This document shows positions 38,010-51,125 of a stretch of 64,000 nt of DNA, one piece after another. The stretch comes from Haloglomus litoreum (GTDB lineage: Archaea > Halobacteriota > Halobacteria > Halobacteriales > Haloarculaceae): positions 2,914,001-2,978,000 of the forward strand of contig NZ_CP119988.1 of NCBI RefSeq assembly GCF_029338515.1, written 5' to 3'. Numbering within the stretch: position 1 is the first letter of the stretch; each line of letters opens with the position of its first letter. The notes beneath the pieces were generated by a model. The model searched no databases, was not told the origin of the DNA, and saw only the letters and a list, made by a program, of their open reading frames with translations. Made by a program: the position numbers and the translations under genes.

Positions 38010-38057
38010 GGCCACCCGCACGGACAGGCGAGCCCCGCGCTCGTGCCTCTCGGTGGG

Positions 38058-38063
38058 TTTATC
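38058..38063 (+). promoter_or_regulatory. TATA-like box for the aIF2-alpha gene
   Basis: TTTATC lies 27 bp before the ATG at 38088, predicting a leaderless transcript for the translation-factor operon. Confidence 0.5.
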
Positions 38064-38087
38064 CCCGCCTGTGGGCTAGCCACGCGT

Positions 38088-38888
38088 ATGCAATTCAGCG
38101 GCTATCCCGAACCCGGGGAACTCGTCGTCGGCCGGGTCGACGAGATCGAGGATTTCGGCGTGTTCGTCGACCTCGAGGAGTACGAGGACAAGCGCGGGCT
38201 CGTCCACGTCAGCGAGGTCGCCTCCGGCTGGATCAAGAACGTCCGCGACCACGTCGGCGTCGACGAGCGCGTCGTCTGCAAGGTGCTCGAGGTCGACGAG
38301 GACGCCCAGCAGATCGACCTCTCCATCAAGGACGTCAACGACCACCAGCGGAGCGACAAGATCCAGGAGTGGAAGTCCGAGCAGAAGGCCGAGAAGTGGA
38401 TGGAGCTGGCCTTCGGCGAGGACATGAGCGACGAGCAGTACTCCACGGTGGCGAACGCACTGTTCGCCGAGTTCGGCTCGCTGTACGACGGCTTCGAGCA
38501 GGCCGCCATCCACGGCCACGAGGCGCTCGAATCGACGGACCTCTCGGAGGAGGACGCCGACGCCATCGTCGATACCGCCCGCGAGAACGTCTCGGTGCCG
38601 TACGTGCAGGTGACGGGCTACGTCGACCTGCGCGCGCCGGGTCCGGCCGGCGTCGAGACCGTCCGGCAGGCGCTCCAGGCCGCCGAGGGCAACGGCGAGG
38701 TCCCCGACGAGATCGACCTCGAGGTGACCTACGTCGGCGCACCCGAGTACCGCATCCGTGTCCAGGCGCCGAACTACAAGACCGCCGAGGCACAGCTCGA
38801 GGAGGCCGCCGGTCGGGCCCGCGAGGCCATCGAGAGCGCCGGCGGGACCGGTGATTTCCACCGCGAACGCCGCACCGACGACGAGTAA
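38088..38888 (+). CDS. eif2a: translation initiation factor aIF2 subunit alpha
   Basis: 266-aa alpha subunit of the heterotrimeric aIF2 that delivers initiator tRNA to the ribosome. The N-terminal S1 domain ([23 protein letters not shown] to about residue 85), the helical middle domain and the C-terminal alpha/beta domain ([33 protein letters not shown]) are all present. Start ATG 38088 is supported by the TATA spacing. Followed by nop10, a pairing conserved in many archaea. Confidence 0.96.
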
Positions 38889-38962
38889 CACTGCTCGTTC
38901 TTCGATAGACTCGTCGATATGCATCGAATCCCGAATATTGCGTTCGAAACACGACGATTCGC

Positions 38963-39160
38963 GTGAAATCCGACATCCACGTCTGCTCCGACTGGCGCGA
39001 GGTCCACGACCGGCCGGTGTACACGCTCGGCGACGAGTGTCCCGAGTGCGGTGCCGAGGCGGTCAACTCCGCCCCCGCGCCGTTCAGCCCCGAGGACCCG
39101 AACGGGGAGTACCGCCGGCGCGCGAAGCGACGGCGCGGCACGTTACCCGAGGGCGAGTGA
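38963..39160 (+). CDS. nop10: H/ACA ribonucleoprotein subunit Nop10
   Basis: 65-aa zinc-ribbon protein of the H/ACA RNP that guides pseudouridylation of rRNA and tRNA; Nop10 bridges Cbf5 and L7Ae. The first Cys of the ribbon is near residue 8, a pair CPEC follows at about 27-30, then the basic proline-rich tail PAPFSPEDPNGEYRRRAKRR typical of the family. GTG start at 38963. Archaeal Nop10 often keeps only part of the zinc site, as here. The Pac2-like gene often found downstream is absent. Confidence 0.9.
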   Translation: MKSDIHVCSDWREVHDRPVYTLGDECPECGAEAVNSAPAPFSPEDPNGEYRRRAKRRRGTLPEGE

Positions 39161-39204: not shown

Positions 39205-40500
39205 TCAGTCGGCTCCTGCGTGGTCTCTCTCGGCCTCCGTCGGCCGGAGGACGTACTCTCTGGCCGTCCGCACGAGGTCGACCACCGCCCGGCGCCGGAC
39301 GGCCAGGATTCCGACTCCCAGGACGATGTAGACGCCACTGAACAGTAACAGTCCCTCGTAGGTCCCGAAGAAGGGGATGAACTGGAGGCCGAACAGCGCG
39401 AGCAGGGCCAGCGCCTCGCCGACCGTGATCTCGAAGTCGACGAGCAGTGTGATGGCGAAGAAACTCTGGGCCGCGGTGAGCCAGATCTCGCCCGCCTGCT
39501 TCTGGTTGAACTCGAGCACGCCGTAGTAGCCGAGCGAGATGCTGTAGACGACGACGAGCGTCCCGATGAGCAGCGTCCACTGGTTCAGCTTCGAGGAGAT
39601 GAGCGCGTTGAACGCCGCGGTGGTCCGGGCCTTGTTGACGAGGTAGGCAGTGGCGATGAACTCCGGGCTCTCACTGGCCAGCGGCGCGACCCACTGGATC
39701 ATGAAGAACGACGAGAGGCCCAGCCGTGGCCCCAGCACCTCCAGCCCCTTCGCGAAGGGCTTCACCGCGAGGAGGATGACCGCCGCCGAGAAGGCGAACA
39801 TGAGGAGGATGGCGGCGATACGGCGTGCCCTGGGGAGTCCCTGCAGGTAGGCAGGTACGCCCAGTTGTGGCTCGTGGGTCGTCTCGCTCCGGAGGACGAC
39901 GACCACGTACGCGGCGTAGAGGCCGACGAGGAATATCGCGTCGACGGCTCCGATACCGCCGTTAAGCGGGATGAAGAAGGCGTAGACGGTCGCCACGCCC
40001 AGGAACACTACCTCGACGCTGACGCGCCGTTCGAGGCTGACGGCGGTCGAGAGCAGTCCCTCGCGCCTGGTGACTTCGCGCCCGCCGGTGCCGGCCCGGT
40101 ACACCGCGTAGAGCGCGATGAGCGACCAGCCGAGACCGACGAGGATGCGGTTCGCACCCGTCATGTTCGCCACCGCGAGGTTCGCGGCGTTCTCGGAGGC
40201 TGCGGTCCCCGGTGCGGCCCCCGCTTCGAACGCGTACAGCGCGTCGACGGCGTACTCGGGGGCGACGGCGATGATGGCTAGCACCGCGAGCGCGAACGAG
40301 CGCGGGACGTCCATCTCCGCCGTCTCCGCGCCCCACGTCAGGACGAACGCGGCCCCGATGACCGCGACGCCGCTGGTCGCGATGACGGCGAGCGTCGGGA
40401 GCGACGCGACGAATCCGAGGCCTCGGAGGAGGAGCCAGGGCACCGTCAGGAGTACGACCGCGAACAGCACCAGCAGTGGGTGGAGGCGCCGTTGGGACAT
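39205..40500 (-). CDS. sodium/calcium exchanger family membrane protein
   Basis: 431-aa polytopic protein with ten or so hydrophobic spans arranged as two inverted halves. The two alpha-repeat-like motifs are ATSGVAVIGAAFVLTWGAE... with APEYAVDALYAF and NMTGANR in the first half, and APLASESPEFIATAYLVNK with NALISSKLNQW in the second. This is the CaCA arrangement in which acidic residues of each repeat bind cation. Predicted to exchange Ca2+ or another cation for Na+ or H+. ATG 40500 is preferred to a longer form. Confidence 0.85.
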   Translation of the reverse strand: MSQRRLHPLLVLFAVVLLTVPWLLLRGLGFVASLPTLAVIATSGVAVIGAAFVLTWGAETAEMDVPRSFALAVLAIIAVAPEYAVDALYAFEAGAAPGTAASENAANLAVANMTGANRILVGLGWSLIALYAVYRAGTGGREVTRREGLLSTAVSLERRVSVEVVFLGVATVYAFFIPLNGGIGAVDAIFLVGLYAAYVVVVLRSETTHEPQLGVPAYLQGLPRARRIAAILLMFAFSAAVILLAVKPFAKGLEVLGPRLGLSSFFMIQWVAPLASESPEFIATAYLVNKARTTAAFNALISSKLNQWTLLIGTLVVVYSISLGYYGVLEFNQKQAGEIWLTAAQSFFAITLLVDFEITVGEALALLALFGLQFIPFFGTYEGLLLFSGVYIVLGVGILAVRRRAVVDLVRTAREYVLRPTEAERDHAGAD

Positions 40501-40570
40501 CTGTTCCACCGAACGTCGGGGCGCGAATAATCGTTGGGGTCGGCCCCCCACACCGTCGTCGAAGACGGAA

Positions 40571-41821
40571 TCAGCCGCTCGCTGCGTCCTCGGCCGGGAG
40601 TCGTGCGAGCGCCCGTCGCAGGAGGGGTGGCGTCATCACCGACGTGAGGACCGCGACCAGGACCACGACGGCGTAGATGGTCGGGGTGAGGACGCCGATG
40701 GCGAGGCCGAGCGCCGCGACGACGATCTCCATCGCCCCGCGAGCGTTGAGCCCGATGGCGACACAGAGCCGCTCCGCCCGCGAGAGGTCGGTGAACGCCG
40801 CACCGAGCGCGACGCCGAGGCCCTTCCCGACGACCGCGACGGCGAAGACGAGCGCGGTGACGGCGAGCGCATCCGGAGTGAGCAGGCCACCGAGGTCCGC
40901 CCGCAGGCCCGCCGTCGCGAAGAAGAGGGGTGCGAACAGCCCGAGCGTCACCAGCTGGAACACCCGCTCGGTCTCGCCGTCCAGCGGGTTCCGCAGGAGG
41001 ATCCCGGCCAGGAACGCCCCGAGGACGGCCTCCAGCCCCAGCGCCAGCGACGCGCCCGAGAGCGCGATACCGGACACGACCACGACCGAGAACCCCGTCA
41101 GGACCGGCGACCGGGCCCGGGTGGCGATGCCGAGCAGGGCCTCGACCACGCGCGGGCCGACGACCACGACGACGGCGACGAACCCCGCGATCACGAGCAG
41201 CGTCCGGCCGACGCCGAGCGGGTCGGGCTGACCGCCGCGGGCGAGGTCGGCGACGAGCGTGAGCGCGACCCAGCCCGCGGCGTCGATGAGCACCGCGGCG
41301 GTGACGGTGAGCTGCCCGACCCGACGGTCCATCGCGTCGAGGTCGACGAGGACCCGGACCGCGACCGGAACCGCGGAGATGCTCAGCGCGGTGCCGAGGA
41401 ACAGGGCGAAGACGGGTCGCCCTGCGGGGTCGACGAGGTACGTCGCCGGGAGCAGCCACCCCAGCCCGACCCCCAGCGCGAAGGGGACGACCGAACCACC
41501 GACGGCGAGCGCGACCGTCGGGGGGAGGTTCCCACGGAGCGCCCCCGTGTCGACCTCCATGCCCGCCAGGACGAGCAGGAAGACGAGGCCGACCGACGCG
41601 AACGCCTCCAGCGGCGCGCTGACGGGCACGACGACCGCCGTGACCCGCGGTGCCACCGCGCCGAGCACCGCCGGGCCCAGCACCAGCCCCGTGAGGAGTT
41701 CGCCCACGACGGGCGCGAACCCGAGCCGGTCGGCGACCGTCCCCAGCGCGTGCGCCGTGGCTAGCAACAGCGCGAGCCCGGACAGCAACGCGAGCAGGGG
41801 GCCCGGCGCGCCGGCGACCAT
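40571..41821 (-). CDS. CPA2-type cation:proton antiporter (Kef/NapA-like)
   Basis: 416-aa membrane domain with about twelve spans and no cytosolic RCK domain. Signatures: GFAPVVGELLTGLVLGPAVLG near the N-terminus, FLLVLAGMEVD, ALSISAVPVAVRVLVDLD, LIDAAGWVALTL (unwound-helix region) and LNARGAMEIVVAALG near the C-terminus. Typical of Na+/H+ or K+/H+ exchangers. ATG 41821 was chosen; GTG 41854 would add 11 residues. Same orientation as the CaCA gene, 70 nt apart; both may serve ion homeostasis. Confidence 0.88.
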   Translation of the reverse strand: MVAGAPGPLLALLSGLALLLATAHALGTVADRLGFAPVVGELLTGLVLGPAVLGAVAPRVTAVVVPVSAPLEAFASVGLVFLLVLAGMEVDTGALRGNLPPTVALAVGGSVVPFALGVGLGWLLPATYLVDPAGRPVFALFLGTALSISAVPVAVRVLVDLDAMDRRVGQLTVTAAVLIDAAGWVALTLVADLARGGQPDPLGVGRTLLVIAGFVAVVVVVGPRVVEALLGIATRARSPVLTGFSVVVVSGIALSGASLALGLEAVLGAFLAGILLRNPLDGETERVFQLVTLGLFAPLFFATAGLRADLGGLLTPDALAVTALVFAVAVVGKGLGVALGAAFTDLSRAERLCVAIGLNARGAMEIVVAALGLAIGVLTPTIYAVVVLVAVLTSVMTPPLLRRALARLPAEDAASG

Positions 41822-41952
41822 GCGGGTGGCGACAGCCCGGGCCCCCTTGAACACCCCGGCAGCAGTCCGACGGCGTTCCGGCCGTGTTCCGACGGGTCGT
41901 CACCCTGGCCAGGGGGCGGCGAGGTTTTCTCGGTCGGTAGCCTAGACGAGGG

Positions 41953-42402
41953 ATGGTATCCGAGCGTGAGGTCATCGCGCGAACCGTCGAGCGGCTCATC
42001 GAGGAGGTCGGGAGCTGGGAGGGCATCACCGTGGCCGAACACCGCTTCGGCGGGACGGAGTTCCGGGTCGGACCCCGGGAGATCGGCCACGTCCACGCGT
42101 GGGGGATGCTCGACATCGCCTACCTCCGCAAGCTCCGCGACGTGCTCATCGACGAGGGCGAGACCGGCGTCCACCACCTCCTCGCGGAGTCGGGCTGGAC
42201 GACCTACTACATCGAGTCCCCGGACGACTACGACCACGCCCGGTGGCTGCTCCGGCTCTCGTACCTCTACCACGTGAAGATCGCGAAGAAGACGCCCGCG
42301 GGCGCCGAGGAACTGGCCGGCGTCGACGTCGAGGCTGAGGTAGAGGGGCTCGGACTCAGCGAGCCGGTCCGTGCGGCGTTCGAACGACGGGGCGCGGCCT
42401 GA
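41953..42402 (+). CDS. luciferase-domain-like (DUF5519-type) protein
   Basis: 149-aa soluble protein with GGTEFRVGPREIGHVHAWG, a following Arg-rich stretch and HHLLAESGWTTYYIESPDDYDHARWLLRLSYLYH. That order (HxHxWG, then SGWxxYxI, then LLRLSYLxxxxK) recalls the small DUF5519 proteins annotated as luciferase-domain proteins. The name does not imply light emission. Function unknown. It lies 113 nt before the enolase-superfamily gene. Confidence 0.6.
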   Translation: MVSEREVIARTVERLIEEVGSWEGITVAEHRFGGTEFRVGPREIGHVHAWGMLDIAYLRKLRDVLIDEGETGVHHLLAESGWTTYYIESPDDYDHARWLLRLSYLYHVKIAKKTPAGAEELAGVDVEAEVEGLGLSEPVRAAFERRGAA

Positions 42403-42514
42403 AACCGGTCACGACCACGCCCCCGTCCATCCGGGCCGGGCGACCACCCGCCGGGGGAGGAACTATGACCCCGCTCCGAGTGAGGTGGCCTGTTCCCGAC
42501 CGGAATCGACACAC

Positions 42515-43615
42515 ATGGAGATCACCGACCTGGACCCGATACCCGTCAGCGTTCCCTACAGTGTCGACTTCGCCATCTCCGGGGGCGAGGTGTCGGCCGC
42601 GAACCACGTCCTCCTCCGACTCCACACCGACGCGGGAGTCGTCGGCCTCGGGGAGGCCTGCCCCGACCCGTACTTCGCACCGGAGACGATGGGCAGTGTC
42701 GTCGCGGCGATCGAGGACCATATCTCGCCGGCGATCCGTGGCGAGGACCCCTCGAACCGCGGGCGCATCCACCGGGCGATGGACGAGGCCATCAGGGGGA
42801 ACCCGTTCGCGAAGGCCGCAGTCGACATCGCGTGCTTCGACGCGACCGGCAAGCACCTCGGCATCCCCGTGTCGACACTGCTGGGCGGACGCCTCCGCGA
42901 CCGGATCGAGGTGGGGCAGTCGATCGGCATCGGGCCGACCGACCGCGCGGTCGAGCGGGCACGCGCCTGGGTCGACGACGGGTTCTCCTCGATCAAGGTC
43001 AAGGTCGGCACCGACCCGGAGACCGACATCGAGCGGGCAACCGCGGTCGCCGAGGCCGTCGGCGACCGGGCCTCAATCCGGGTCGACGCAAACCAGGGGT
43101 ACCGTGCGGACCAGGCCGTCCGCGTGTTCTCGGCGCTGGAGTCCGAGTGCGACCTCCTGCTCGTCGAGCAGCCCGTCGCGGCCGACGACCTCGCGGGCAT
43201 GGCACGCGTCACTGCGGCCCTGGAGACGCCCGTTCTCGCCGACGAGTCGGTGTTCTCCCCCCACGACGCGATCGACATCGTCGACCGCGGCGCCGCGGAC
43301 GCACTCAGCGTCAAACTCGTCAAGGCCGGCGGGCTGTACCGCTCGCGGCAGATCGCCGCCGTCGCGGCCGCCGCTCACCTCCCCCTCGTCGTCGGGAGCA
43401 TGGTGGAGCTGGGTGTCGGAACCGCTGCCGGTGCCCACTTCGCGGCGACGCTCCCTGCAGCCTACCCGTCGGACGTGAAGGGGCCGACGCTCCACGAGGC
43501 GTCCGTCCTGGCGGACCCGATCCGCATCGAGGAGGGACACACCGTCGTCCCCGAGGGCCCGGGTCTCGGGGTGGAACTCGACGACCGGACCGTCGAGGCC
43601 TACCGGGTGGAGTGA
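42515..43615 (+). CDS. mandelate racemase/muconate lactonizing enzyme family protein
   Basis: 366-aa enolase-superfamily enzyme with an intact active site: catalytic KxK (Lys161, Lys163 in SSIKVKVG), metal ligands Asp191, Glu218 and Asp243, and second-side Lys267 (SVKLVKAGG). The Lys/Lys pair and short capping loops fit the muconate-lactonizing or dipeptide-epimerase subgroup. The reaction would be proton abstraction alpha to a carboxylate. ATG 42515. It is the last intact chromosomal gene before the mutY island. Confidence 0.88.
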   Translation: MEITDLDPIPVSVPYSVDFAISGGEVSAANHVLLRLHTDAGVVGLGEACPDPYFAPETMGSVVAAIEDHISPAIRGEDPSNRGRIHRAMDEAIRGNPFAKAAVDIACFDATGKHLGIPVSTLLGGRLRDRIEVGQSIGIGPTDRAVERARAWVDDGFSSIKVKVGTDPETDIERATAVAEAVGDRASIRVDANQGYRADQAVRVFSALESECDLLLVEQPVAADDLAGMARVTAALETPVLADESVFSPHDAIDIVDRGAADALSVKLVKAGGLYRSRQIAAVAAAAHLPLVVGSMVELGVGTAAGAHFAATLPAAYPSDVKGPTLHEASVLADPIRIEEGHTVVPEGPGLGVELDDRTVEAYRVE

Positions 43616-43639: not shown

Positions 43640-44091
43640 CTACCGGCGGAGGCGGGCGACGGTCCCGTCCTCGCGGGGTTCAACCGCGACAAGCCCGTCA
43701 TCGGAGAGGCCCGACAGGAGATCTCGGAGCCATTCACGGCCGTGCTCACCGTCGGGTGTGTAGTCCACTCGTATCCGGTGCCCCAGCGTGTCCAGGTCCA
43801 TCTCGTCGTGTTCGCCGAGGAGTCGAACGATCCGCCCGCGGAACTGCCGACGGCTCCCTTCGAAGCTCGGCTGTGTGGGGACGTCCGGTGCGGTGAAGTC
43901 ACCGGTCTGGTACGCGTGGCACCACTCCCGCCACGGGCAGTCCGCCTCGTCGCACTTCGGGGCCTTCCCGCAGGCCACCCCGCCGAGTTCCATGATGGCG
44001 TTGTTCCAGACGCGGGACTCGCCGGCGGGCATGAGCGCGCGGGCGACCCGCTCGAACGCCGCGTCGTCGTCCGGCGTGTCGAACGCGCGGT
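43640..44091 (-). pseudogene. displaced native 3' end of mutY (copy 1)
   Basis: Minus-strand fragment encoding the C-terminal ~150 residues of a MutY-type glycosylase, from RAFDTPDDD through ALMPAGESRVWNNAIMELGG, the four-Cys iron-sulfur loop, to ...TVARLRR and a stop. Mismatches to the intact gene at 50115-51125 are spread over the whole length (DTPDDDAAFERVA versus AEIHNADDPDYETVA). GC content and codon use match the surrounding chromosome, so this is probably the original 3' end. Similarity to mutY stops at 44091 and the sequence then runs into a SnoaL-like fragment. It has no start of its own. Confidence 0.85.
44082..44091. repeat. mutY junction core, copy 1 (left end of island)
   Basis: AACGCGCGGT, the last bases of mutY homology in copy 1; the sequence beyond it (44092 onward) is not mutY. 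The same 10 bp ends mutY homology at 48504-48513 and lies inside the intact gene at 50563-50572. It encodes the RAF residues on the minus strand. Confidence 0.7.
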
Positions 44092-44107
44092 AAAAGACGT
44101 TCTCGAC

Positions 44108-44853
44108 GGCACTGTCTAGTTAGCGCAGATTGAGGAACGAGCAGGTCGTTGAGTGTCTTGCCTAGAGATGCTCGCAGACCTGCTCGAGAACGATTACAAC
44201 GGCGACTTAGATGAATATTGGGAGCGTGAGCGGACGGCGACGCCCGTCAGGGCGTTCGCCGTCCGGCTTCACGCGACCGGTTGTTCACTCAGAGAAACAG
44301 AAGCGATTCTTGCGTCTCTCGGCGTGGAGCGTTCGCATCAGGCGATCTTTCAGTGGGTACATCGGCTGACTGACAGCAGTCCAGACCCGCCGACGGCTTC
44401 GCCGTCGCGGGTCGCGGTTGACGAGACTGCTGTCCGGATCAATGGCGACCTGTGTTGGGTGTACGCTGCAATCGACCTTGATACAAAGCTGATTCTGGAT
44501 GCCCAGATTTTCAAGCGTCACGGCACCGATCCAGCGGCTGCGTTCCTCCACCGACTCCGTGAAAATCACGACTGCGCGAATACCACGTTTTTGACTGACT
44601 CGTTCGGCTATCGGACTGCCCTCAATCGATTAGGGCTGAGCGGTCGGGTGGACTACACCGACCGAAACCTCATCGAAAAGTGGTTTCACACCCTCAAGCA
44701 GCGCATCGACCGCTTCCATCACTCGTGGGTCGGCAGTCGGCGGAGCGTCCGCCGTTGGATTTCTCACTACGTGCAATACTACAACGAACAACGACCGCAC
44801 CAATCGCTCGACGGACGAACGCCAGCTGAGGAGGTGCTAAACTAGACAGTGCC
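44108..44853 (+). mobile_element. IS6-family insertion sequence with intact ends and target duplication
   Basis: The 746-bp element has perfect 14-bp inverted ends (GGCACTGTCTAGTT at 44108-44121, its complement at 44840-44853). It is flanked by identical 8-bp direct repeats TTCTCGAC at 44100-44107 and 44854-44861. Size, 8-bp duplication and the single DDE transposase gene fit haloarchaeal IS6-family elements. The intact ends, duplication and reading frame suggest it is recent and possibly active. It sits inside a SnoaL-like pseudogene, 16 nt from the end of the mutY fragment. Confidence 0.95.
44153..44845 (+). CDS. IS6-family transposase
   Basis: 230-aa DDE transposase. An N-terminal helix-turn-helix (LRETEAILASLGVERSHQAIFQWV, about 46-70) is followed by catalytic Asp90 (VAVDETAVRING), Asp149 (FLTDSFGYR) and Glu175 (RNLIEKWFHTLK). 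GTG start 44153; the stop lies inside the right inverted repeat. Between the HTH and the catalytic domain a hairpin with arms CGACGGC/GCCGTCG and loop ttc (44391-44407) encodes TASPS. A larger inverted repeat lies at about 44232-44266 within the coding sequence. Confidence 0.95.
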   Translation: MSCLEMLADLLENDYNGDLDEYWERERTATPVRAFAVRLHATGCSLRETEAILASLGVERSHQAIFQWVHRLTDSSPDPPTASPSRVAVDETAVRINGDLCWVYAAIDLDTKLILDAQIFKRHGTDPAAAFLHRLRENHDCANTTFLTDSFGYRTALNRLGLSGRVDYTDRNLIEKWFHTLKQRIDRFHHSWVGSRRSVRRWISHYVQYYNEQRPHQSLDGRTPAEEVLN

Positions 44854-45030
44854 TTCTCGACGATTTCGTCGGATTCGTGAAACGTCCCGCCGCCGGCGAT
44901 TCCCCCCGGCATGTGTAACTCGGCTTCGGGACCCGTGATGTCTCGTATGGCCTCGATATCGCCCTCCGCGAACCGTCTCGCAGTAGCGCACGTGATACTC
45001 GCCACTGTCGCGCTGACAACACTCGTTCGA
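44854..45030 (-). pseudogene. SnoaL-like (NTF2-fold) gene fragment
   Basis: The minus strand encodes RRFAEGDIEAIRDITGPEAE followed by LHMPGGIAGGGTF and SDEIVE, then continues across the IS as NVF before meeting mutY copy 1. This resembles the first half of SnoaL-like polyketide-cyclase/NTF2-fold proteins. The expected N-terminal part (YHVRYCETV) lies in a different frame, so there is a frameshift. The C-terminal half is missing, cut at the mutY junction. Not functional. Confidence 0.65.
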
Positions 45031-45103
45031 CTCGGCCACCGTTACAGCACTCGTCACTCACGGCTCTGTCACCTGCTACCGACCCGGATTCCCTCGCAGT
45101 TGG

Positions 45104-45289
45104 TCACTCCGACTGCTCGTTCTTTTCGACTTCAGTGACGATCACGTCCCAGTCGGGATGTTCGACTCCGTTCCGACACTCGAATCCGCCTTCAACGTCG
45201 ATTCCATTCTCGTAGGCCCTCACGAGGAGCGCTTTTAGCTCCGCGTTCAATTCCGCATTCGAGGTGAGCTGGGTCTCCTCGGACGTCAT
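45104..45289 (-). CDS. small conserved haloarchaeal protein
   Basis: 61-aa acidic protein (SNAELNAELKALLVRAYENG, then a CRNGVEHPDWDVIVTEVEK segment). This pattern is familiar from many short haloarchaeal proteins next to HalOD1 genes. Its start overlaps the stop of the upstream HalOD1 gene by 4 nt, so the two are translationally coupled. No motif assigns a function. Confidence 0.65.
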   Translation of the reverse strand: MTSEETQLTSNAELNAELKALLVRAYENGIDVEGGFECRNGVEHPDWDVIVTEVEKNEQSE

Positions 45290-45636
45290 CTTTCCGCGTC
45301 CTTCCCGTATTTTTCCGCTGGTGATTTGTCTCCCTGGGAGATAGTGACCACACCGTAGCTGGACACGGTTATCTCGTGGTCCTCGTGCGTGAATGAAACG
45401 TGGATATCTCCGGTCGTTCCGGTGCCGACCCGGACGAATTTATCCAGCGCGTCAGGATCAACCGTAGAGTGAAGCGGGTCCAGTTCGACCGGATCAGCGT
45501 CCATCACTTCTGCCAGCGTTGCGATAACGGTCATGCTTGCGGACGTCTTCTCCTGATCAAACTGGGTGCGAACAGCCGCAGCGTCCTGATGATACTCGAC
45601 CGATTCTACGCTGACCCCAGACACTACTGCGTCCAT
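45286..45636 (-). CDS. HalOD1 output-domain protein
   Basis: 116-aa protein matching the haloarchaeal HalOD1 output domain: VIATLAEVMDADPVELDPLHSTVDPDALDKFV followed by a beta-rich part ending in ITVSSYGVVTIS. HalOD1 is found as the output module of haloarchaeal signalling proteins and as free-standing small proteins. Role probably regulatory. ATG 45636; 4-nt overlap with the 61-aa gene downstream. Lower GC than the flanking chromosome, consistent with the island. Confidence 0.85.
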   Translation of the reverse strand: MDAVVSGVSVESVEYHQDAAAVRTQFDQEKTSASMTVIATLAEVMDADPVELDPLHSTVDPDALDKFVRVGTGTTGDIHVSFTHEDHEITVSSYGVVTISQGDKSPAEKYGKDAER

Positions 45637-45714
45637 ATCTACCTATTCTACCGGCCTGAATCGGTTTAGTAGAGGTACTGATTATACAGAGGGTTTAAGA
45701 GAACGCCCGCCCGA

Positions 45715-46359
45715 TCACGGCGAAGTGACGAGCGTCGCGCCAATGAGACGTCGATGCCCGCGGCGGAGTCGTGACGAAAGCGACTGCTGCGTGATGCCGA
45801 GTTCGTCTGCGAGCTCTTCGAGCGACACCTCACGTGGCGTGTCGAAGTAGCCACGCTCGTAGGCCAGTACCAGCGCCTCGCGCTGGGTTTCGGTCAGCTC
45901 GTACCCCTCTCCCTGGATTGGGAGCATGGCGTGGACAGCGGTGATCTCTATCGGGATGTCGTGTTCCTGGCAGTACTCTCGAAACTCAGCGATTGCATCC
46001 TGACTCTCGCTGCGCACCTCGAATCGCCACTCGTCTTTCGTTCCGATTCCGGAGAGTACGACGACGTTGGCCTTGGCCAGGGCGCTCAGGACGCCCAAGT
46101 ACGATTGCTTCCACTCGGCACGCATGAGATACTCGTCCTCGACGCTATCGATCAGTCGGATGTTCGTCACGCCCGCGTGTGGGTCGAACGCGTCTTCGAT
46201 GTCCGCGGTTTCAACGCCACGCACCCAGAAGTACGGGATGATCAGCGTCTGGTGTGGAATCAGTCGCTCCAGTTCGACTGTCACTCCCGGCAAGTTCTCG
46301 AAGACACTTCCCAGCGGAAATTCCGCTGTCGGACTCGTAAACTCCATCACGGTCGCCAT
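45715..46359 (-). CDS. Bat-type helix-turn-helix regulator
   Basis: 214-aa haloarchaeal regulator of the bacterio-opsin-activator type. An N-terminal sensor-like domain (1-150) precedes the HTH_10 DNA-binding domain, recognised by LTETQREALVLAYERGYFDTPREVSLEELADELGITQQSLSSRLRRG. ATG 46359. It is divergent from a second regulator of the same type (46549-47205), the pair sharing a 189-nt control region. Target genes unknown, plausibly the adjacent island genes. Confidence 0.88.
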   Translation of the reverse strand: MATVMEFTSPTAEFPLGSVFENLPGVTVELERLIPHQTLIIPYFWVRGVETADIEDAFDPHAGVTNIRLIDSVEDEYLMRAEWKQSYLGVLSALAKANVVVLSGIGTKDEWRFEVRSESQDAIAEFREYCQEHDIPIEITAVHAMLPIQGEGYELTETQREALVLAYERGYFDTPREVSLEELADELGITQQSLSSRLRRGHRRLIGATLVTSP

Positions 46360-46548
46360 GGTGGAATCTTCGTCCGACAGGCCGATAACTGGCGTGGGTG
46401 GTGTATCATGGCTTCGAGACAGGCCAGAGCACGGTCAGTAGATAGAATCGCGTACTCCGTGAACAGGGAGGGCTGATCGAATGCTGGCGGACATGGTACA
46501 CCATGCCACTCCCTTTTGTACGAACCTGAACAACCTATTTCCGAGAGA

Positions 46549-47205
46549 ATGAGTGTAATCGCGGAGGTTCGAATTTCACCCGACGACTTCGAACTCGGGC
46601 AGATACTGGATCTCGATGAGGCGTCGGCTATCGAACTCGAAACGCTCGTCCCGAGTGGGGACGTTACCGTGCCGCTCTTCTGGGTTTACGAACCGGTCGA
46701 AAACCAGTTTCTCGATACCGTCCGACGCTATCCGACTGTCAACAGCGTAACGGAGGTGGACGTGTTCGACGACAGAACCCTATTCAGGCTCGATTGGGAT
46801 GCGAGCCAGGATCATCTCTTTCGGTGCATTCTGGACAACGAGGGACAAATTTTGGGTGCGACAGGGACAGCTGAAGGGTGGGATTTCGAGATTCGGTTCT
46901 CTCACCGCGAGGCATTGAGTCAGTATTGGACGTGTTGTGAGGACGCACACATATCGCTGGAGATGATCAGTGTATACAATCCCACGGATCCCGGGGCCGG
47001 CCCGTGGTACGGCTTGAGCAAGCCCCAACGAGAAGCGCTCACGCTTGCCGTTCGGATGGGTTACTACGACATTCCCCGAGGCTGCACGACCGAAGAACTC
47101 GCGGACGAACTCGGAATTTCTGATCAAGCAGTGACGGAGCGTCTGCGTCGTGCCATCGGTACGTTCGTTCGACATGCACTCCTCACCCCCGAGACAGACG
47201 CGTAA
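46549..47205 (+). CDS. Bat-type helix-turn-helix regulator, second
   Basis: 218-aa protein of the same architecture as the divergent neighbour, only moderately similar. The HTH_10 part reads LSKPQREALTLAVRMGYYDIPRGCTTEELADELGISDQAVTERLRRA. ATG 46549 was preferred over an in-frame TTG 33 nt upstream. Codon use is clearly less GC-rich than chromosomal genes in the window. The divergent arrangement suggests auto- or cross-regulation. Confidence 0.88.
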   Translation: MSVIAEVRISPDDFELGQILDLDEASAIELETLVPSGDVTVPLFWVYEPVENQFLDTVRRYPTVNSVTEVDVFDDRTLFRLDWDASQDHLFRCILDNEGQILGATGTAEGWDFEIRFSHREALSQYWTCCEDAHISLEMISVYNPTDPGAGPWYGLSKPQREALTLAVRMGYYDIPRGCTTEELADELGISDQAVTERLRRAIGTFVRHALLTPETDA

Positions 47206-47266
47206 GTGAATCGACTGGTACCATTGTGTACCAAGGAATAGAAGCAGGCAGTTGTGGCTCTGCTAT

Positions 47267-47680
47267 ATGGGTATGGATGAGAACGCAGAGCGAGAGGCAG
47301 ATGATCTACAGAATATCGGCGGTCCCTCCGAGTCTGCGAAACGAGCGCGACCGATTTCCCCCGATAGGATTCTGTCGGCAGTAGCGAACGAACACCGACG
47401 CGCTATCCTTAATTCACTGGACAACGCTCCCGGTAAGGCATTGGAGTACGATGCGCTCGTAGACTGCGTTGCAGACAGGGTTCGAGACGAAGACGCAGAG
47501 CGAGCATCCCACGAACACCGACAACGCGTCCGGATCGCACTTCACCATATTCATCTTCCGAAACTGGATGCGGCTGGGATAGTCGACTACGAAACTGAAG
47601 CGGGGAACGTCCAGTTTGTCGGCGGCGAACTGGAACGAGATCTCCTGACACTGGTCGGGTCACACGATGTCAATGTGTGA
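47267..47680 (+). CDS. winged-helix DUF7344-type protein
   Basis: 137-aa protein with ILSAVANEHRRAILNSLDN, an ERASHEHRQRVRIALHHIHLPKLDAAGIVDYE segment and a terminal wing-like strand. This is the haloarchaeal DUF7344 winged-helix pattern, often found beside HalOD1 and Bat-type genes. ATG 47267; ATG 47273 equally possible. Likely DNA-binding. It follows the second Bat-type gene by 61 nt on the same strand. Confidence 0.75.
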   Translation: MGMDENAEREADDLQNIGGPSESAKRARPISPDRILSAVANEHRRAILNSLDNAPGKALEYDALVDCVADRVRDEDAERASHEHRQRVRIALHHIHLPKLDAAGIVDYETEAGNVQFVGGELERDLLTLVGSHDVNV

Positions 47681-47737
47681 ACGAAGTGCAGTATCGAGGA
47701 CGAGTAGCTCGTGGGTCGAACGTATCCTGTCTGTCTA

Positions 47738-47875
47738 GCGGGATGATGTTCTACAACGAGTGAAGCAGAGTGGGGACAGTCAGCGGGTCGCCGCGACGCA
47801 GGAAGGCTGGGAATTCGTTGTCGTATTTTCTGACTGTGAAACAGTTGGTGAATTTTTCGAATATCTCCTAGACTA
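47738..47875 (+). pseudogene. possible remnant of a Bat-type regulator (gap 47681-48058)
   Basis: A 45-codon open stretch without a start encodes ATQEGWEFVVVFSDCETVGE and then FFEYL. This resembles the end of the sensor domain of Bat-type regulators (compare the EGWDFEIRFSHREAL stretch in the intact gene 46549-47205). The HTH part is missing. The rest of the 378-nt gap shows no gene. Confidence 0.3.
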
Positions 47876-48058
47876 GCGTGTCGATTTCGATGTCCGCTGG
47901 ATGGTAACAGATCAAACCCATTCGACGAGTCGCAATAGATCTCACAAGCCCGATCTAATGGCTTGGAACAATGGAAGCCAACACGCCGAATCCATACGCT
48001 ACGTTCAGCACGGCGTTCCCGTCACGTTCTACTGATTTCAACGGAGCCAGTATACTCA

Positions 48059-48513
48059 CTACCCCAGGCGAGTGATCGTTTCATCGCCTGTTTCCTCGAC
48101 CTCGATTAGCCCATCGTCAGCCAAATCGGAGAGAAGGTCTCGAAGCCATTCGCGTCCGTGTTGACCGTCTGGTGTATAATCCACGCGAATCCTGTGTCCG
48201 AGGCTATCGAGACTCATCTCGTCGTGGTTACTGAGGACACGAACGATACGACCCCGGAACTGTCGCCGACTCCCATCGAAGCTCGGTTGAGTCGGAACGT
48301 CGGGCGCGGTGAAGTCACCGGTCTGGTACGCGTGACACCACTCGCGCCACGGACAGCCCGCCTCGTCACAGCGGGGTGTCTTCCCACAGGCGACGCCACC
48401 GAGTTCCATGATCGCGTTGTTCCAGATTCGGGACTCTCCGGGCGGCATGAGCACGTTAGCAAGGGTTTCGTAGTCCGGATCGTCCGCATTATGGATTTCT
48501 GCAAACGCGCGGT
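48059..48513 (-). pseudogene. detached 3' end of mutY (copy 2)
   Basis: Minus-strand fragment encoding RAFAEIHNADDPDYETLANVL through the iron-sulfur Cys loop to ...ETITRLG and a stop. It is close to the 3' part of the intact mutY (AEIHNADDPDYETVANAL), sharing even silent positions around ATTATGGATTTCTGCAAACG, and less close to copy 1. Homology ends at 48513, directly after the same 10-bp core as in copy 1. Its lower GC marks a foreign allele. There is no start codon context and an in-frame stop lies just upstream, so it is non-functional. Confidence 0.85.
48504..48513. repeat. mutY junction core, copy 2 (middle junction)
   Basis: AACGCGCGGT at the end of mutY homology in copy 2. Sequence to its right (48514 onward) is AT-richer, non-mutY and leads, after a 288-nt gene-free stretch, to the hydrolase-like gene at 48802. 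Confidence 0.7.
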
Positions 48514-48801
48514 CAGAAACAGACTATACAACGACAGTCAAATACGCTGGACAACTGTCTTTGTGTTGGACCGGGAGACTGTCTATTTCGCGGACGAGAC
48601 GAATCCCAAGTGTCCATCCATCGGCCAACACCCTTGTTCCAGTCGGTGTCGCCGTGTGAACCGAAACCGAACGACGGCTGAAACGACCTCACGGAGACTG
48701 CTGACTCACAGCCACTGACTCGAACCGCGTCTCAGATATTATGTCCTGATATCTATTTTTGATAGAAAGTGGTACAAACGTCACTAGTATCGATATAAAA
48801 T

Positions 48802-49932
48802 ATGGCCATTAATCAATGTTCCTCGACTCGGCGTGAGCTGCTTAGCGCCACTGTCTTAGGAGCGTTACCAGTAACTGAGCTCTCGGAAAACACCGAATCG
48901 CGGGTGACAATGATTTCACCTGGCGACAGTGACTCGTTCAACTATCCATACTTCCTGTACACCCCATCGACCGATACGACTACAGAACGCCCGTTGCTGG
49001 TGCAGCCGAACAATACGGGTGCCACCACCGACGACTTTGCGAAACACCGAGCCGAAGCGCGAAAAGATGTAGAAGAAGGATTTGCTCGATTGATTAGCGA
49101 CGAATTGGGTGTTCCTTTACTGATGCCAGTGTTTCCCCGTCCGGAGTCTGAGCCGGTAGACTGGCGGCACTACGTTCATCAACTTGATACGGAGACGATG
49201 CAAATCTCCGCCGGTCCGCTTGAACGCGTTGATCTTCAGTTAGTCGGGATGATAGAAGATGCGCAGAACCGGATTTCGTCGGATATTCCGCTCACTGAGC
49301 AGGTCATACTGAATGGCTTCTCCGCGTCGGGAAACTTCGTGAATAGGTTCGCAGTTCTCCACCCCGAGCTGGTAACATCCGTGACGGCAGGCGGAGTCAA
49401 TGGAATGGTGACGCTTCCGATTAGGGAGGCGAAAGGGCATACGCTGAACTACCAGATCGGTGTCGCCGATGTCGAGGGGCTCACAGGAAAGCAATTCGAT
49501 ATCGCGGAGTTCGGTGACGTCAATCAGTACATCTACATGGGCGCGAAAGATCAAAACGACACACTCCAGGCTGGAGACGCATGGAGTGACGAGCAGCGTG
49601 AGATCGCCCGCGAAGTGTACGGAGAGGACATGATAGATGACCGCTTCCCGTATTGCGAGTCAGTGTACGATGATGTTGACGCGTCGGCAGAGTTCGAATT
49701 GTACGAAGGCGTCGGACACGCGGTTACGGAAGCCATGGTACGTGATATAACGAACTTCCACCGCGAACACGCAGAGATTCCGGACCGTGCTGTTGAATCC
49801 GGAAAGTCAGACCGTGACGTGAGTATACTGGATGTACTTGAATTGCTTGGAATCCCGGTTGAGGCCGCGATCGCAGGCTTAACCACGGTTCTCGCCGGCA
49901 TGGCCTATCTGTTGCGTCAGGTAGAAAAGTGA
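48802..49932 (+). CDS. exported alpha/beta-hydrolase-fold protein (island cargo)
   Basis: 376-aa protein. The N-terminus STRRELLSATVLGALPV resembles a Tat signal without a lipobox Cys. The middle has an esterase-like nucleophile elbow GFSASG (in VILNGFSASGNFVNRFAVLH) and a likely catalytic His in EGVGHAVTEAM. The C-terminus has a hydrophobic segment (AAIAGLTTVLAGMAYLL) that could anchor it. This combination recalls PHB-depolymerase-like esterases but the substrate is unknown. It is the only gene between mutY copies 2 and 3, with lower GC than the chromosome. Confidence 0.7.
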   Translation: MAINQCSSTRRELLSATVLGALPVTELSENTESRVTMISPGDSDSFNYPYFLYTPSTDTTTERPLLVQPNNTGATTDDFAKHRAEARKDVEEGFARLISDELGVPLLMPVFPRPESEPVDWRHYVHQLDTETMQISAGPLERVDLQLVGMIEDAQNRISSDIPLTEQVILNGFSASGNFVNRFAVLHPELVTSVTAGGVNGMVTLPIREAKGHTLNYQIGVADVEGLTGKQFDIAEFGDVNQYIYMGAKDQNDTLQAGDAWSDEQREIAREVYGEDMIDDRFPYCESVYDDVDASAEFELYEGVGHAVTEAMVRDITNFHREHAEIPDRAVESGKSDRDVSILDVLELLGIPVEAAIAGLTTVLAGMAYLLRQVEK

Positions 49933-50114
49933 TGTACTGCACTGGCAGCGGTGAGATGGTGTGTCAGTAGCAAGCCCAGATTGACCGGGCGGAATCTGCC
50001 GACCGATTCCTCGGATGGTGCCAGCTGATTCAGCTGTGGCGAAGACCGGTTATCGTATTGGACCTCAGCAGAGCAGCTGATACTCTGAGACCGGACTTCG
50101 CGGAAACGCAACGA

Positions 50115-51125
50115 CTACCTCTGAAGACGAGCCACCGTCTCATCTTTAGTCTCTTCAACTTCGACTAACCCATCATCAGCCAGATCCGAGAGCAGTTCTC
50201 GAAGCCAGTCTCGACCGTGGTCGCCGTCTGGTGAATAGTCCACGCGGATTCGATGACCGAGGGTATCGAGAGTCATCTCGTCATAGTTACCGAGGAGTTT
50301 GATGATTCGCCCGCGGAACTGCCGGCGACTCCCCTCGAAGCTCGGTTGTGTGGGTACGTCGGGCGCGGTGAAGTCACCGGTCTGGTAGGCGTGACACCAT
50401 TCGCGCCAGGGACACCCAGCCTCGTCACATCGTGGTTTCTTCCCGCAGGCAACACCGCCGAGTTCCATAATCGCGTTGTTCCAGATTCGGGACTCTCCAG
50501 CTGGCATAAGGGCGTTCGCAACGGTTTCGTAGTCTGGATCGTCCGCATTATGGATTTCTGCAAACGCGCGGTGGAGCACGCGCTTGACGTTCGTATCGAC
50601 CACGGCATCGCCCTGGTTGAACGCGAAGGAGGCGACCGCGTTCGCAGTGTACGGGCCGACACCCATCAGCTCCTGCAGGCGCTCGGGCGTCCGGGGGAAC
50701 GCGCCCGCCTCGACCCCCTCGACCTCGCCCTCGACGACCTGCCGGGCGGCCTCGTGGAGGTACTTCGCGCGGTTGTTGTAGCCCAGCGAGTGGTCCGTCC
50801 AGAAGCCGACCACGTCGGCGCGGTCGGCGGCCGCGAGGGTCTCGACGGTGGGCCACTCGTCGAGGAAGTCGTGCCAGGCCTCGACGACACGGTCGAGCTG
50901 GGTCTGCTGGCTCATCACCTCCGAGACGAGGATCTCGTACGGGTCCTCGGTCTCCCGCCACGGGAACGAGCGGTGGTCGGCCTCGTACCACGCGACGAGC
51001 GCCTCGCGGACCCGCTCGACCGCTTCCGGGTCGTCGGGGAGCGCGGGGGCGTCGCCGTCCTCGCGGGCAGCGCCCGCTGTGGTGCCATCGGGGAGTTCCT
51101 CGGACGCTGGCCCGGCGTCTGTCAT
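50115..51125 (-). CDS. mutY: A/G-specific adenine glycosylase MutY-type, chimeric 3' end
   Basis: 336-aa base-excision-repair glycosylase that removes adenine mispaired with oxidised or normal guanine. Catalytic Glu69 (SEVMSQQTQ), HhH-GPD motif LMGVGPYTANAVASFAF with Asp177 (VVDTNVKR), and the iron-sulfur Cys (227, 233, 238, 244) are all present. The C-terminal domain is short. From about 50573 to 51125 the DNA is GC-rich like the chromosome; from 50115 to 50572 it is lower in GC and close to copy 2. The gene is thus a chimera joined at residues RAF (186-188). Full length, so probably functional. Confidence 0.92.
   Translation of the reverse strand: MTDAGPASEELPDGTTAGAAREDGDAPALPDDPEAVERVREALVAWYEADHRSFPWRETEDPYEILVSEVMSQQTQLDRVVEAWHDFLDEWPTVETLAAADRADVVGFWTDHSLGYNNRAKYLHEAARQVVEGEVEGVEAGAFPRTPERLQELMGVGPYTANAVASFAFNQGDAVVDTNVKRVLHRAFAEIHNADDPDYETVANALMPAGESRIWNNAIMELGGVACGKKPRCDEAGCPWREWCHAYQTGDFTAPDVPTQPSFEGSRRQFRGRIIKLLGNYDEMTLDTLGHRIRVDYSPDGDHGRDWLRELLSDLADDGLVEVEETKDETVARLQR
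50563..50572. repeat. mutY junction core, copy 3 (inside intact gene)
   Basis: AACGCGCGGT at the point where base composition of mutY changes from island-like (left) to chromosomal (right). Confidence 0.65.

Follow-up and report, generated by a model that had tools for sequence, protein, structure and literature searches.

Stacked 3' ends at a haloarchaeal mutY gene point to mobile elements that probably integrate site-specifically and replace the end of the gene

The mutY locus of Haloglomus litoreum raises the question of how one DNA-repair gene comes to be followed by two further copies of its own 3' end. We analysed it within a window of 64 kb, the whole stretch of DNA under study, whose first letter is position 1 in all coordinates below. 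The best explanation, which we consider very probable, is site-specific integration with replacement of the gene end, in which a family of mobile elements of haloarchaea uses mutY as its attachment site.

Three mutY 3' ends at a common core

Open reading frames and alignments place three mutY 3' ends in the window, all in one orientation and with the boundaries given by an initial annotation of the locus (Table 1). Copy 3 is joined in frame to the mutY 5' part, forming an ORF of 336 aa, while the detached copies 1 and 2 are both open from the junction to the stop codon, over about 150 codons. The sequence AACGCGCGGT occurs in the window exactly three times, at the three junctions where the annotation had placed it, and is absent from the opposite strand. 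The annotation's statement that mutY similarity stops at the same base holds precisely for copy 2 and roughly for copy 1, where a weak mutY-like reading continues for about 30 bp beyond the core (V-E-N-V-F-Y-R vs V-K-R-V-L-H-R).

As also described there, copy 1 is GC-rich like the chromosome (0.701, with 0.716 in the mutY 5' part), and copies 2 and 3 are related and of lower GC (0.593 and 0.572). Copies 2 and 3 are 83% identical over 448 bp; copies 1 and 3 are 78.5% identical over 363 bp. Within the hybrid gene the GC content steps from about 0.56-0.65 to about 0.70-0.79 near position 50572. The four Cys of the presumed Fe-S cluster lie in the replaced part, which makes up 149 of the 336 codons (44% of the gene).

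Table 1. Features of the mutY locus, in window coordinates
Feature	Position	Strand	Evidence
Detached mutY 3' end 1 (copy 1), host type, 66-nt spacer, GC 0.70	43640..44091	-	
Core at left junction of A	44082..44091	+	AACGCGCGGT match
Element A with its own mutY end (48059-48513), core-to-core length 4,422 bp	44092..48513		
DDE (IS240-type) transposase near left end of A	44153..44845	+	1.7e-11
Cargo of A: HalOD1 protein	45286..45636	-	1.8e-22
Cargo of A: second regulator-like ORF, likeness by eye	45715..46359	-	ORF
Cargo of A: BAT / HTH_10 regulator	46516..47205	+	HTH_10 4.7e-18
Cargo of A: DUF7344 protein	47252..47680	+	2.4e-18
Detached mutY 3' end 2 (copy 2), element type, 72-nt spacer	48059..48513	-	
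Core at B/A junction	48504..48513	+	AACGCGCGGT match
Element B with its own mutY end (50115-50572), core-to-core length 2,059 bp	48514..50572		
Cargo gene of B, 376-aa enzyme-like protein	48802..49932	+	
Hybrid mutY of 336 aa, with the 5' part from the host (50573-51125) and the 3' part (copy 3) from the element (50115-50572)	50115..51125	-	ORF, alignments, GC step, HhH-GPD Pfam match, MutY structures
GATTTCTGCAAA, putative recombinase arm in element-borne mutY end, codons F-A-E-I	50553..50564	+	Compared as an inverted repeat with the left ends of elements that bear the integrase
Core AACGCGCGGT within intact mutY, right-hand junction of B	50563..50572	+	Detached ends of 16 other species begin at these codons

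The empty site and the origin of the three ends

Genomes of the same genus hold a single, uninterrupted mutY whose end matches copy 1 (bit scores against the congener G391 are 319, 220 and 182 for copies 1, 2 and 3), and they have neither the extra mutY ends nor their cargo. Joined in silico to copy 1, the mutY 5' part aligns without interruption to the mutY of island-free congeners. Both comparisons had been proposed in the initial annotation and came out as it predicted. Because the congeners' mutY end matches copy 1, copies 2 and 3 were probably imported.

The tree that the annotation called for agrees in its topology: mutY 5' parts cluster by species and the imported 3' ends cluster across families. 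Forcing copy 2 or copy 3 into the genus clade gave p = 0.07 and 0.10 in AU tests, so the argument for a foreign origin is made by other evidence, namely the empty site, the DNA comparison and the longer-spacer type that the two copies share. We also considered whether copy 1 itself is foreign, its protein being closest to a detached end in another genome (G219, 88%); the genus clade is not rejected and scores higher, and we treat copy 1 as native.

Could tandem duplication and gene conversion within the genome have produced the stack? One other genome, G240, carries two nearly identical 3' ends 1.25 kb apart, as such a history would leave. In the window, however, the host end is of another length type than copies 2 and 3, and these two cluster with other families and enclose unrelated cargo; relatives lack the whole stack, and no congener stack with host-type ends throughout was seen. 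We find an origin by duplication scarcely credible.

The same junction recurs across haloarchaea

The search of other haloarchaeal mutY loci suggested by the annotation revealed extra detached ends at the same junction. Detached mutY ends that begin with the same codons (Y/H-R-A-F) are present in 15 other genomes among the 391 sampled and, in addition, in Salinibaculum litoreum. Stacked events at a repair gene had been thought unusual; they are not, since the junction is found in at least 16 other species and G285 contains as many as three mutY 3' ends. Wherever both ends share one contig, the detached end lies downstream on the same strand. Detached ends start at the core in 19 of 23 instances, the remaining ones being shorter and none clearly longer. 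The intact gene is of element type after the core and the displaced end is of host type, both in the window and in the remaining element-type cases; this is the outcome expected of site-specific exchange at the core. The short elements of G240, G241 and G111 have an end of host type, not element type. Together, the empty site and this recurrence support the proposal that elements enter mutY at one core carrying a replacement 3' end.

In homologous recombination, foreign DNA, circular or linear, that carries a mutY 3' end would enter by a RecA/RadA-type crossover in the shared end of the gene, with no site-specific recombinase. Some 450 bp of homology are on offer, and haloarchaea exchange DNA readily. 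A crossover within the 3' end nevertheless predicts host-type sequence after the core and an element-type detached end, the reverse of what is found. Homology is almost nil to the left of the core, yet the break falls at the same codons in 16 other species, and the breakpoints are not scattered. This route is highly unlikely.

Site-specific integration, the reading we prefer, would extend to small elements. Like A and B, 10 of the 16 other cases measure no more than 1.2-4.6 kb; their cargo includes AbiEi/AbiEii, a PIN protein or one enzyme-like gene. A 2,335-bp AbiE cassette occurs in two families, equal in length end to end and with sharp identity steps at both cores: 89-93% inside, compared with 66% in the mutY 5' part, 74% in the displaced end and 46-50% in the flanks. 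The excess of the internal identity over that of the mutY 5' part demonstrates that this short cassette moved as a unit. The elements of G111 and G285 (96-97%) and those of G260 and G177 (about 90%) likewise recur with shared ends.

An integrase clade linked to mutY, and a sister at mutL

In 6 of the 16 other cases, a tyrosine integrase of one clade lies 0.2-4.2 kb from the detached mutY end. All five sampled genomes with this clade have a detached end (overall, 16 of 391 genomes do), and S. litoreum, found by the integrase alone, is the sixth integrase-clade case. The integrases, 65-98% identical in the five genomes, match PF00589 (1.3e-9) and PF02899 above the cut-offs. Their conserved motifs (G-L-R-A-S-E, S-H-Y-G-R-H and a C-terminal S-Y-I-H-A-x-Y) contain, with residue roles read from the family pattern, the R...H-x-x-R...Y signature that accompanies the PF00589 domain in tyrosine recombinases.

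The six islands that encode this site-specific integrase span about 16-111 kb, and in several cases two small accessory genes precede it; A, B and most short elements do not encode it. The left ends of the integrase-bearing elements mirror the coding right arm at a fixed spacing, with 7-10 of 12 positions matching; the left ends of A and B match at 4-6 of 12 positions, which is the chance level. Signs of nucleotide conservation beyond coding needs in the element-type end were not convincing.

A sister integrase (64% identical) is encoded in an element lying between an intact and a detached mutL end, where about 378 codons (~1.2 kb) are replaced. For 19 integrases of greater distance (up to ~52% identity), genes duplicated within 20 kb were sought, and no clear case of a replaced 3' end emerged. 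Duplicated N-terminal parts accompany two of these distant integrases (G336 and G300), and at two others (G288 and G214) the duplicates may be mere kinase paralogues.

Phage, plasmid and viral-contig collections contained neither a free attP nor an integrase of the mutY clade, and no free circular form appeared in phage, plasmid and viral collections. The sole haloarchaeal plasmid match to a mutY end proved to be a mutY gene of normal length.

Elements A and B

The mutY-linked integrase clade is absent from the ORFs of A and B, and its nearest relative in the H. litoreum genome is 47% identical and far away. The 376-aa protein of B has no match in Pfam or PADLOC; its closest relative (76%) is encoded directly downstream of mutY in another genus. 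The DDE transposase of A is either a later passenger or cargo.

That transposase gene, and the tandem insertion of casposons in the 3' part of an archaeal gene (PMC6563490), would fit casposon-like or transposase-driven insertion into a preferred gene. Transposition, however, duplicates a short target and brings no divergent, homologous gene end of 450 bp. The element ends carry the core of mutY instead of inverted repeats with target-site duplications, B is one gene without transposase features, and neither a Cas1 endonuclease nor a DNA polymerase B is found among the ORFs of A and B. The probability of such an insertion is close to negligible.

A more substantial alternative is that A, B and the other short elements are decayed remnants of integrase-bearing elements, with the interior deleted, one end kept by selection on mutY and no mobilisation in trans. 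The missing integrase, the left ends without the arm motif, the core shared with large integrase-bearing islands and the transposase in A all suit this idea. It accounts poorly for the AbiE cassette, equal in length across two families with sharp steps at both cores, for the two other pairs of elements with shared ends, and for the equal shortness of 10 of the 16 other cases. We take decay seriously, although it seems to us somewhat less likely than not.

A model of integration with gene-end replacement

Under site-specific integration, the attP of each element would consist of the core ACCGCGCGTT and, behind it, the element's own in-frame version of the last ~149 mutY codons. Recombination with the host core would create an open mutY, a hybrid of host 5' part and element 3' part, and leave the old 3' end detached on the far side of the element. 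Autonomous members would carry the mutY-linked tyrosine integrase, the probable catalyst of the exchange. Short members, A and B included, would carry one to few cargo genes and no clade integrase, and are most likely mobilised in trans. A and B may have been moved by the same recombinase as the integrase-bearing elements, and the hybrid MutY is presumably functional.

Several observations count against this model: A and B have no clade integrase or left arm motif, no free circle was found, some short elements have host-type ends, and the AU tests are nonsignificant. The layout does not record the order of arrival, as the initial annotation had supposed it would, because insertion of A at the left junction of a B already in place yields an identical final structure.

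We further propose, as a tentative idea held at somewhat less than even confidence, that mutY (and mutL) serve as cassette-loading sites. Non-autonomous cassettes of one to a few genes would gain entry by bringing along a spare repair-enzyme C terminus, be moved in trans by the recombinase module of larger elements and pile up downstream, repeatedly swapping the Fe-S and mismatch-recognition part of MutY.

Discussion

Among the closest parallels is the prophage e14, whose integration in icd of Escherichia coli leaves an old end of 163 bp detached (PMC6379469). Like e14 (and phage 21), the mutY elements combine a replacement 3' end with an old end displaced to the far side, in a housekeeping gene entered site-specifically, and they use the same core in independent insertions. 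They differ in the length exchanged, about 450 bp (149 codons) in mutY and ~1.2 kb in mutL vs ~163 bp in icd; short integrase-less cassettes and stacks are not described for e14/icd.

Among archaea, 14 of 68 thaumarchaeal elements lie in the 3'-distal part of protein genes (PMC6563490). They too involve a tyrosine recombinase or casposon, form tandem arrays at one site and restore the frame; in contrast, their targets are other genes, and the detailed example swaps 8 nucleotides with the stop codon, with no exchange of a whole domain (PMC6563490). The tyrosine integrases at tRNA genes of haloarchaea and other archaea share a short core, a target kept whole by element-borne sequence and reuse of the site, but they target a tRNA rather than a protein-coding repair gene, and the review describing them is silent on mutY (PMC8371274). 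In the mutY elements the att anatomy is a gene-internal core. SpyCI of Streptococcus pyogenes is also a mobile island in a mismatch-repair gene, mutL; unlike the mutY elements it enters the 5' end, switches expression with a mutator phenotype and leaves the coding 3' part unreplaced (PMC3430984). Integron cassettes resemble the short elements in how they work, as small recombinase-less cargo units accumulating at one locus, whereas no integron integrase or attC-type site was seen in the mutY elements, each of which carries a host-gene part. In the open literature, a scope outside which most subscription journals fall, we found no paper on mutY as a haloarchaeal integration site.

If the integration model holds, mobile elements swap close to half of a core repair enzyme in place, in frame and across genera, which would open a direct way to replace domains within a housekeeping gene. 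The detached old ends would form a partial record of earlier insertions, and an integrase lineage with different repair-gene targets could yield site-specific tools for haloarchaeal genetics. Short integrase-less cassettes, some with defence or toxin-antitoxin cargo, point to possible cassette loading in archaea. The hybrid genes would be a natural source of MutY (and MutL) chimeras that lend themselves to the measurement of mutation rates.

Three mutY 3′ ends in the window and an empty site in the same genus

Elements A (4,422 bp core to core) and B (2,059 bp) interrupt mutY in the Haloglomus litoreum genome (G000, a single haloarchaeal contig of 4.70 Mb; window G000:C1:2914001-2978000). The 10-mer AACGCGCGGT, here called the core, is common to the junctions of all three mutY 3′ ends and was found nowhere else on either strand of the whole window. 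Copies 2 (detached) and 3 (joined to the mutY 5′ part) are of the longer, element type, with 72 nt from the core to the GES codons, FAEIHNADDPDYE, and are lower in GC. Copy 1 (detached) is of the shorter, host type (66 nt, FDTPDDDAAFE) and GC-rich. The initial annotation had mutY similarity ending at the same base in both detached copies; this holds exactly for copy 2, which changes abruptly at the core, and approximately for copy 1, where a weak mutY-like reading runs about 10 codons further.

Each of three congeneric genomes has one full mutY with a shorter-type end. Joining the window's 5′ part to copy 1 in silico gives a sequence that aligns unbroken to the mutY of one of them, G391 (962 bases, 84%). 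Of the window's three 3′ ends, copy 1 also matches each of the congeners best. On these sequence comparisons, with mutY uninterrupted and its end copy 1-like in the congeners, A and B are inserted DNA.

The direct neighbour of mutY in G391 and G392 is nop10, with the eIF2-alpha gene next (both named by eye); G389 has about 3.3 kb between mutY and this pair. The window has four chromosome-like genes between copy 1 and nop10 (by eye two transporters, a small protein and an enolase-superfamily-like enzyme), a further difference from G391 and G392, and in Halogeometricum limi the detached mutY end is immediately followed by a 71% relative of the antiporter among them. This block may be a third, older event or an ancestral arrangement.

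In phylogenetic trees, the window mutY 5′ part clusters with its genus (support 100/99), and 21 element-type 3′ ends form one supported clade (96/84) that spans at least three families and Salinibaculum litoreum. The displaced host-type ends of the sister genomes G006 and G177 are still sisters (100/96); their intact 3′ ends are not. Copy 1 fell beside an end from another family in the initial protein tree, with modest support; forcing it with its genus gave a higher score and was not rejected (AU p 0.59). Constraining copy 2 or copy 3 to the genus clade cost 36-37 log units, with a non-significant AU test (p 0.07-0.10).

Coordinates of features at the mutY and mutL loci
Feature	Location	Position	Basis
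Complete mutY	window 50115-51125	-	ORF and alignment
Additional mutY 3′ end (copy 2)	window 48059-48513	same strand as mutY, downstream	alignment
Additional mutY 3′ end (copy 1)	window 43640-44091	same strand as mutY, downstream	alignment
Four chromosome-like genes	window 39205-43615		by eye
nop10 and eIF2-alpha gene	window ~38043-39159		names by eye
Intact mutL, G169	L097 9504-11582		naming from sequence
Sister-integrase element and mutL region, G169	L097 4330-11582
MutY-like glycosylase gene, G331	L078 6925-7542
222-aa recombinase gene, G285	L073 3608-4276
Extra 59-bp copy, G219	L069, element position 3198-3256

Recurrence at the same codons

A search of 391 Halobacteria genomes with the 149 C-terminal residues of MutY gave at least two matches in 20 genomes besides the window's. 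Because this query begins just past the core, the loci were searched again with full-length MutY, and in 15 genomes (G006, G019, G029, G111, G158, G177, G180, G187, G219, G240, G241, G260, G285, G315 and G331) the start of a detached end falls at the same Y/H-R-A-F codons, and G285 has two such ends. G102, G108, G124 and G149 have a shorter detached part; G094 fits neither group clearly. S. litoreum (CP046866), reached via its integrase, is another case, with about 111 kb between intact mutY and detached end. Wherever both share a contig, the detached end lies downstream on the same strand. G036, G133, G225, G320, G343 and G366 have an element-type end and no detached copy within the few kb examined.

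Tyrosine integrases that share 65-98% identity with the one in G158 (H. limi) occur in the islands of G158 (25.8 kb), G331 (20.5 kb), G019 (15.8 kb), G006 (58 kb), G180 (Halovenus rubra, across contigs) and S. litoreum (~111 kb), 0.2-4.2 kb from the detached mutY end and on the same strand. A core-starting detached end is present in 5/5 sampled genomes with this clade versus 16/391 overall. The G331 island also contains a second, distant (30%) MutY-like DNA glycosylase gene. In G285 a different tyrosine recombinase gene directly follows intact mutY and may represent another recombinase at this site.

Integrase-bearing elements, and those in G029, G240, G285 and G111, have at their left ends an ATTTCYGCAAT-like sequence that mirrors, as its reverse complement, the element-borne right arm TTTGCAGAAATC (codons F-A-E-I). 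It matches at 7-10 of 12 positions at one fixed spacing; random stretches with free spacing reach 9/12 in 0.17% and 10/12 in 0.015%. The core thus looks to be flanked by two inverted putative recombinase arms, the right one coding sequence. Left ends of A, B and the G219, G260, G177 and G241 elements gave only chance-level scores for the motif, so any recombinase assigned to these elements is putative. Near its left end the G219 element repeats, over 59 bp, the beginning of the element-type mutY end; this repeat may be a scar left by another event.

A second repair gene

The integrase of G169 is sister to the mutY clade (64% identical), and its element has intact mutL on one side and a detached 3′ part of mutL on the other (residues 315-690; 55% identity to the intact one), with the junction in the conserved NVHPRKMEVR coding region. 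In this single case, with both genes named from sequence, the sister integrase's element thus appears to have replaced about 378 mutL codons, as the clade does at mutY.

A ~180-aa gene, weakly like an integrase core-binding domain (PF02899, below cut-off), precedes the integrase in G158, G169 and S. litoreum, and a small ribbon-helix-helix-like gene also lies ahead of it in the latter two. A similar arrangement of small accessory genes stands upstream of many more distant integrases (~40-52% identical; loci L114-L133, in many genomes), which suggests that the recombination module is conserved and serves other targets. In G336 (L119/L152) and G300 (L121/L139), the first ~90-105 residues of a gene downstream of the integrase are duplicated on the other side, a hint of 5′-end duplication at another target gene.

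Proposed mechanism and short cassettes

An attP comprising element left end, core and mutY end would recombine with attB, the core inside mutY. The predicted product, in the order host 5′ part, core, element mutY end, cargo, element left end, core and old mutY end, has the layout observed. Homologous recombination within the shared mutY 3′ end would instead leave the intact gene with host-type sequence beyond the core, the opposite of what is found. Each junction still contains the core, so a site used by this recombination would be reusable and stacking possible; for the same reason the order of detached ends does not record the arrival of A and B, as had been proposed, since A could have entered at B's left junction.

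Short elements span 1.2-4.6 kb. Their cargo includes AbiEi/AbiEii (G187, G315, G241), a 282-aa protein of no assigned family (G260, G029), joined in G177 by a Schlafen AlbA_2 protein, a PIN protein (G240) and, by eye, TnpB-like and amidohydrolase-like genes (G111, G285) and sensor proteins (G219). Element A carries regulators and a transposase. Element B carries one enzyme-like gene, whose closest relative (76%) lies directly downstream of a mutY with a host-type end in another genus. The AbiE cassette has the same length, 2,335 bp, in G187 and G315, two genomes of different families. Identity is 89% in the mutY end and 93% in the cargo, versus 66% in the mutY 5′ part, 74% in the displaced end and 46-50% in the flanks; by this switch at the cores on both sides, the cassette is a unit transferred as one. 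For A and B, mobilisation in trans by a mutY-clade integrase is our leading reading, and decay of larger elements its main rival.

Relation to known systems

The e14 element in icd separates 163 bp (PMC6379469), SpyCI enters at the 5′ end of mutL (PMC3430984), and Thaumarchaeal elements target 3′-distal parts of protein genes, form tandem arrays and exchange 8 nt in the detailed example (PMC6563490). mutY goes unmentioned in a review of archaeal tyrosine recombinases (PMC8371274). Set against these systems, the mutY/mutL case is a variant that is unusual in the large coding part exchanged, in the two repair genes targeted by one integrase lineage and, at mutY, in short cassettes that lack an integrase.
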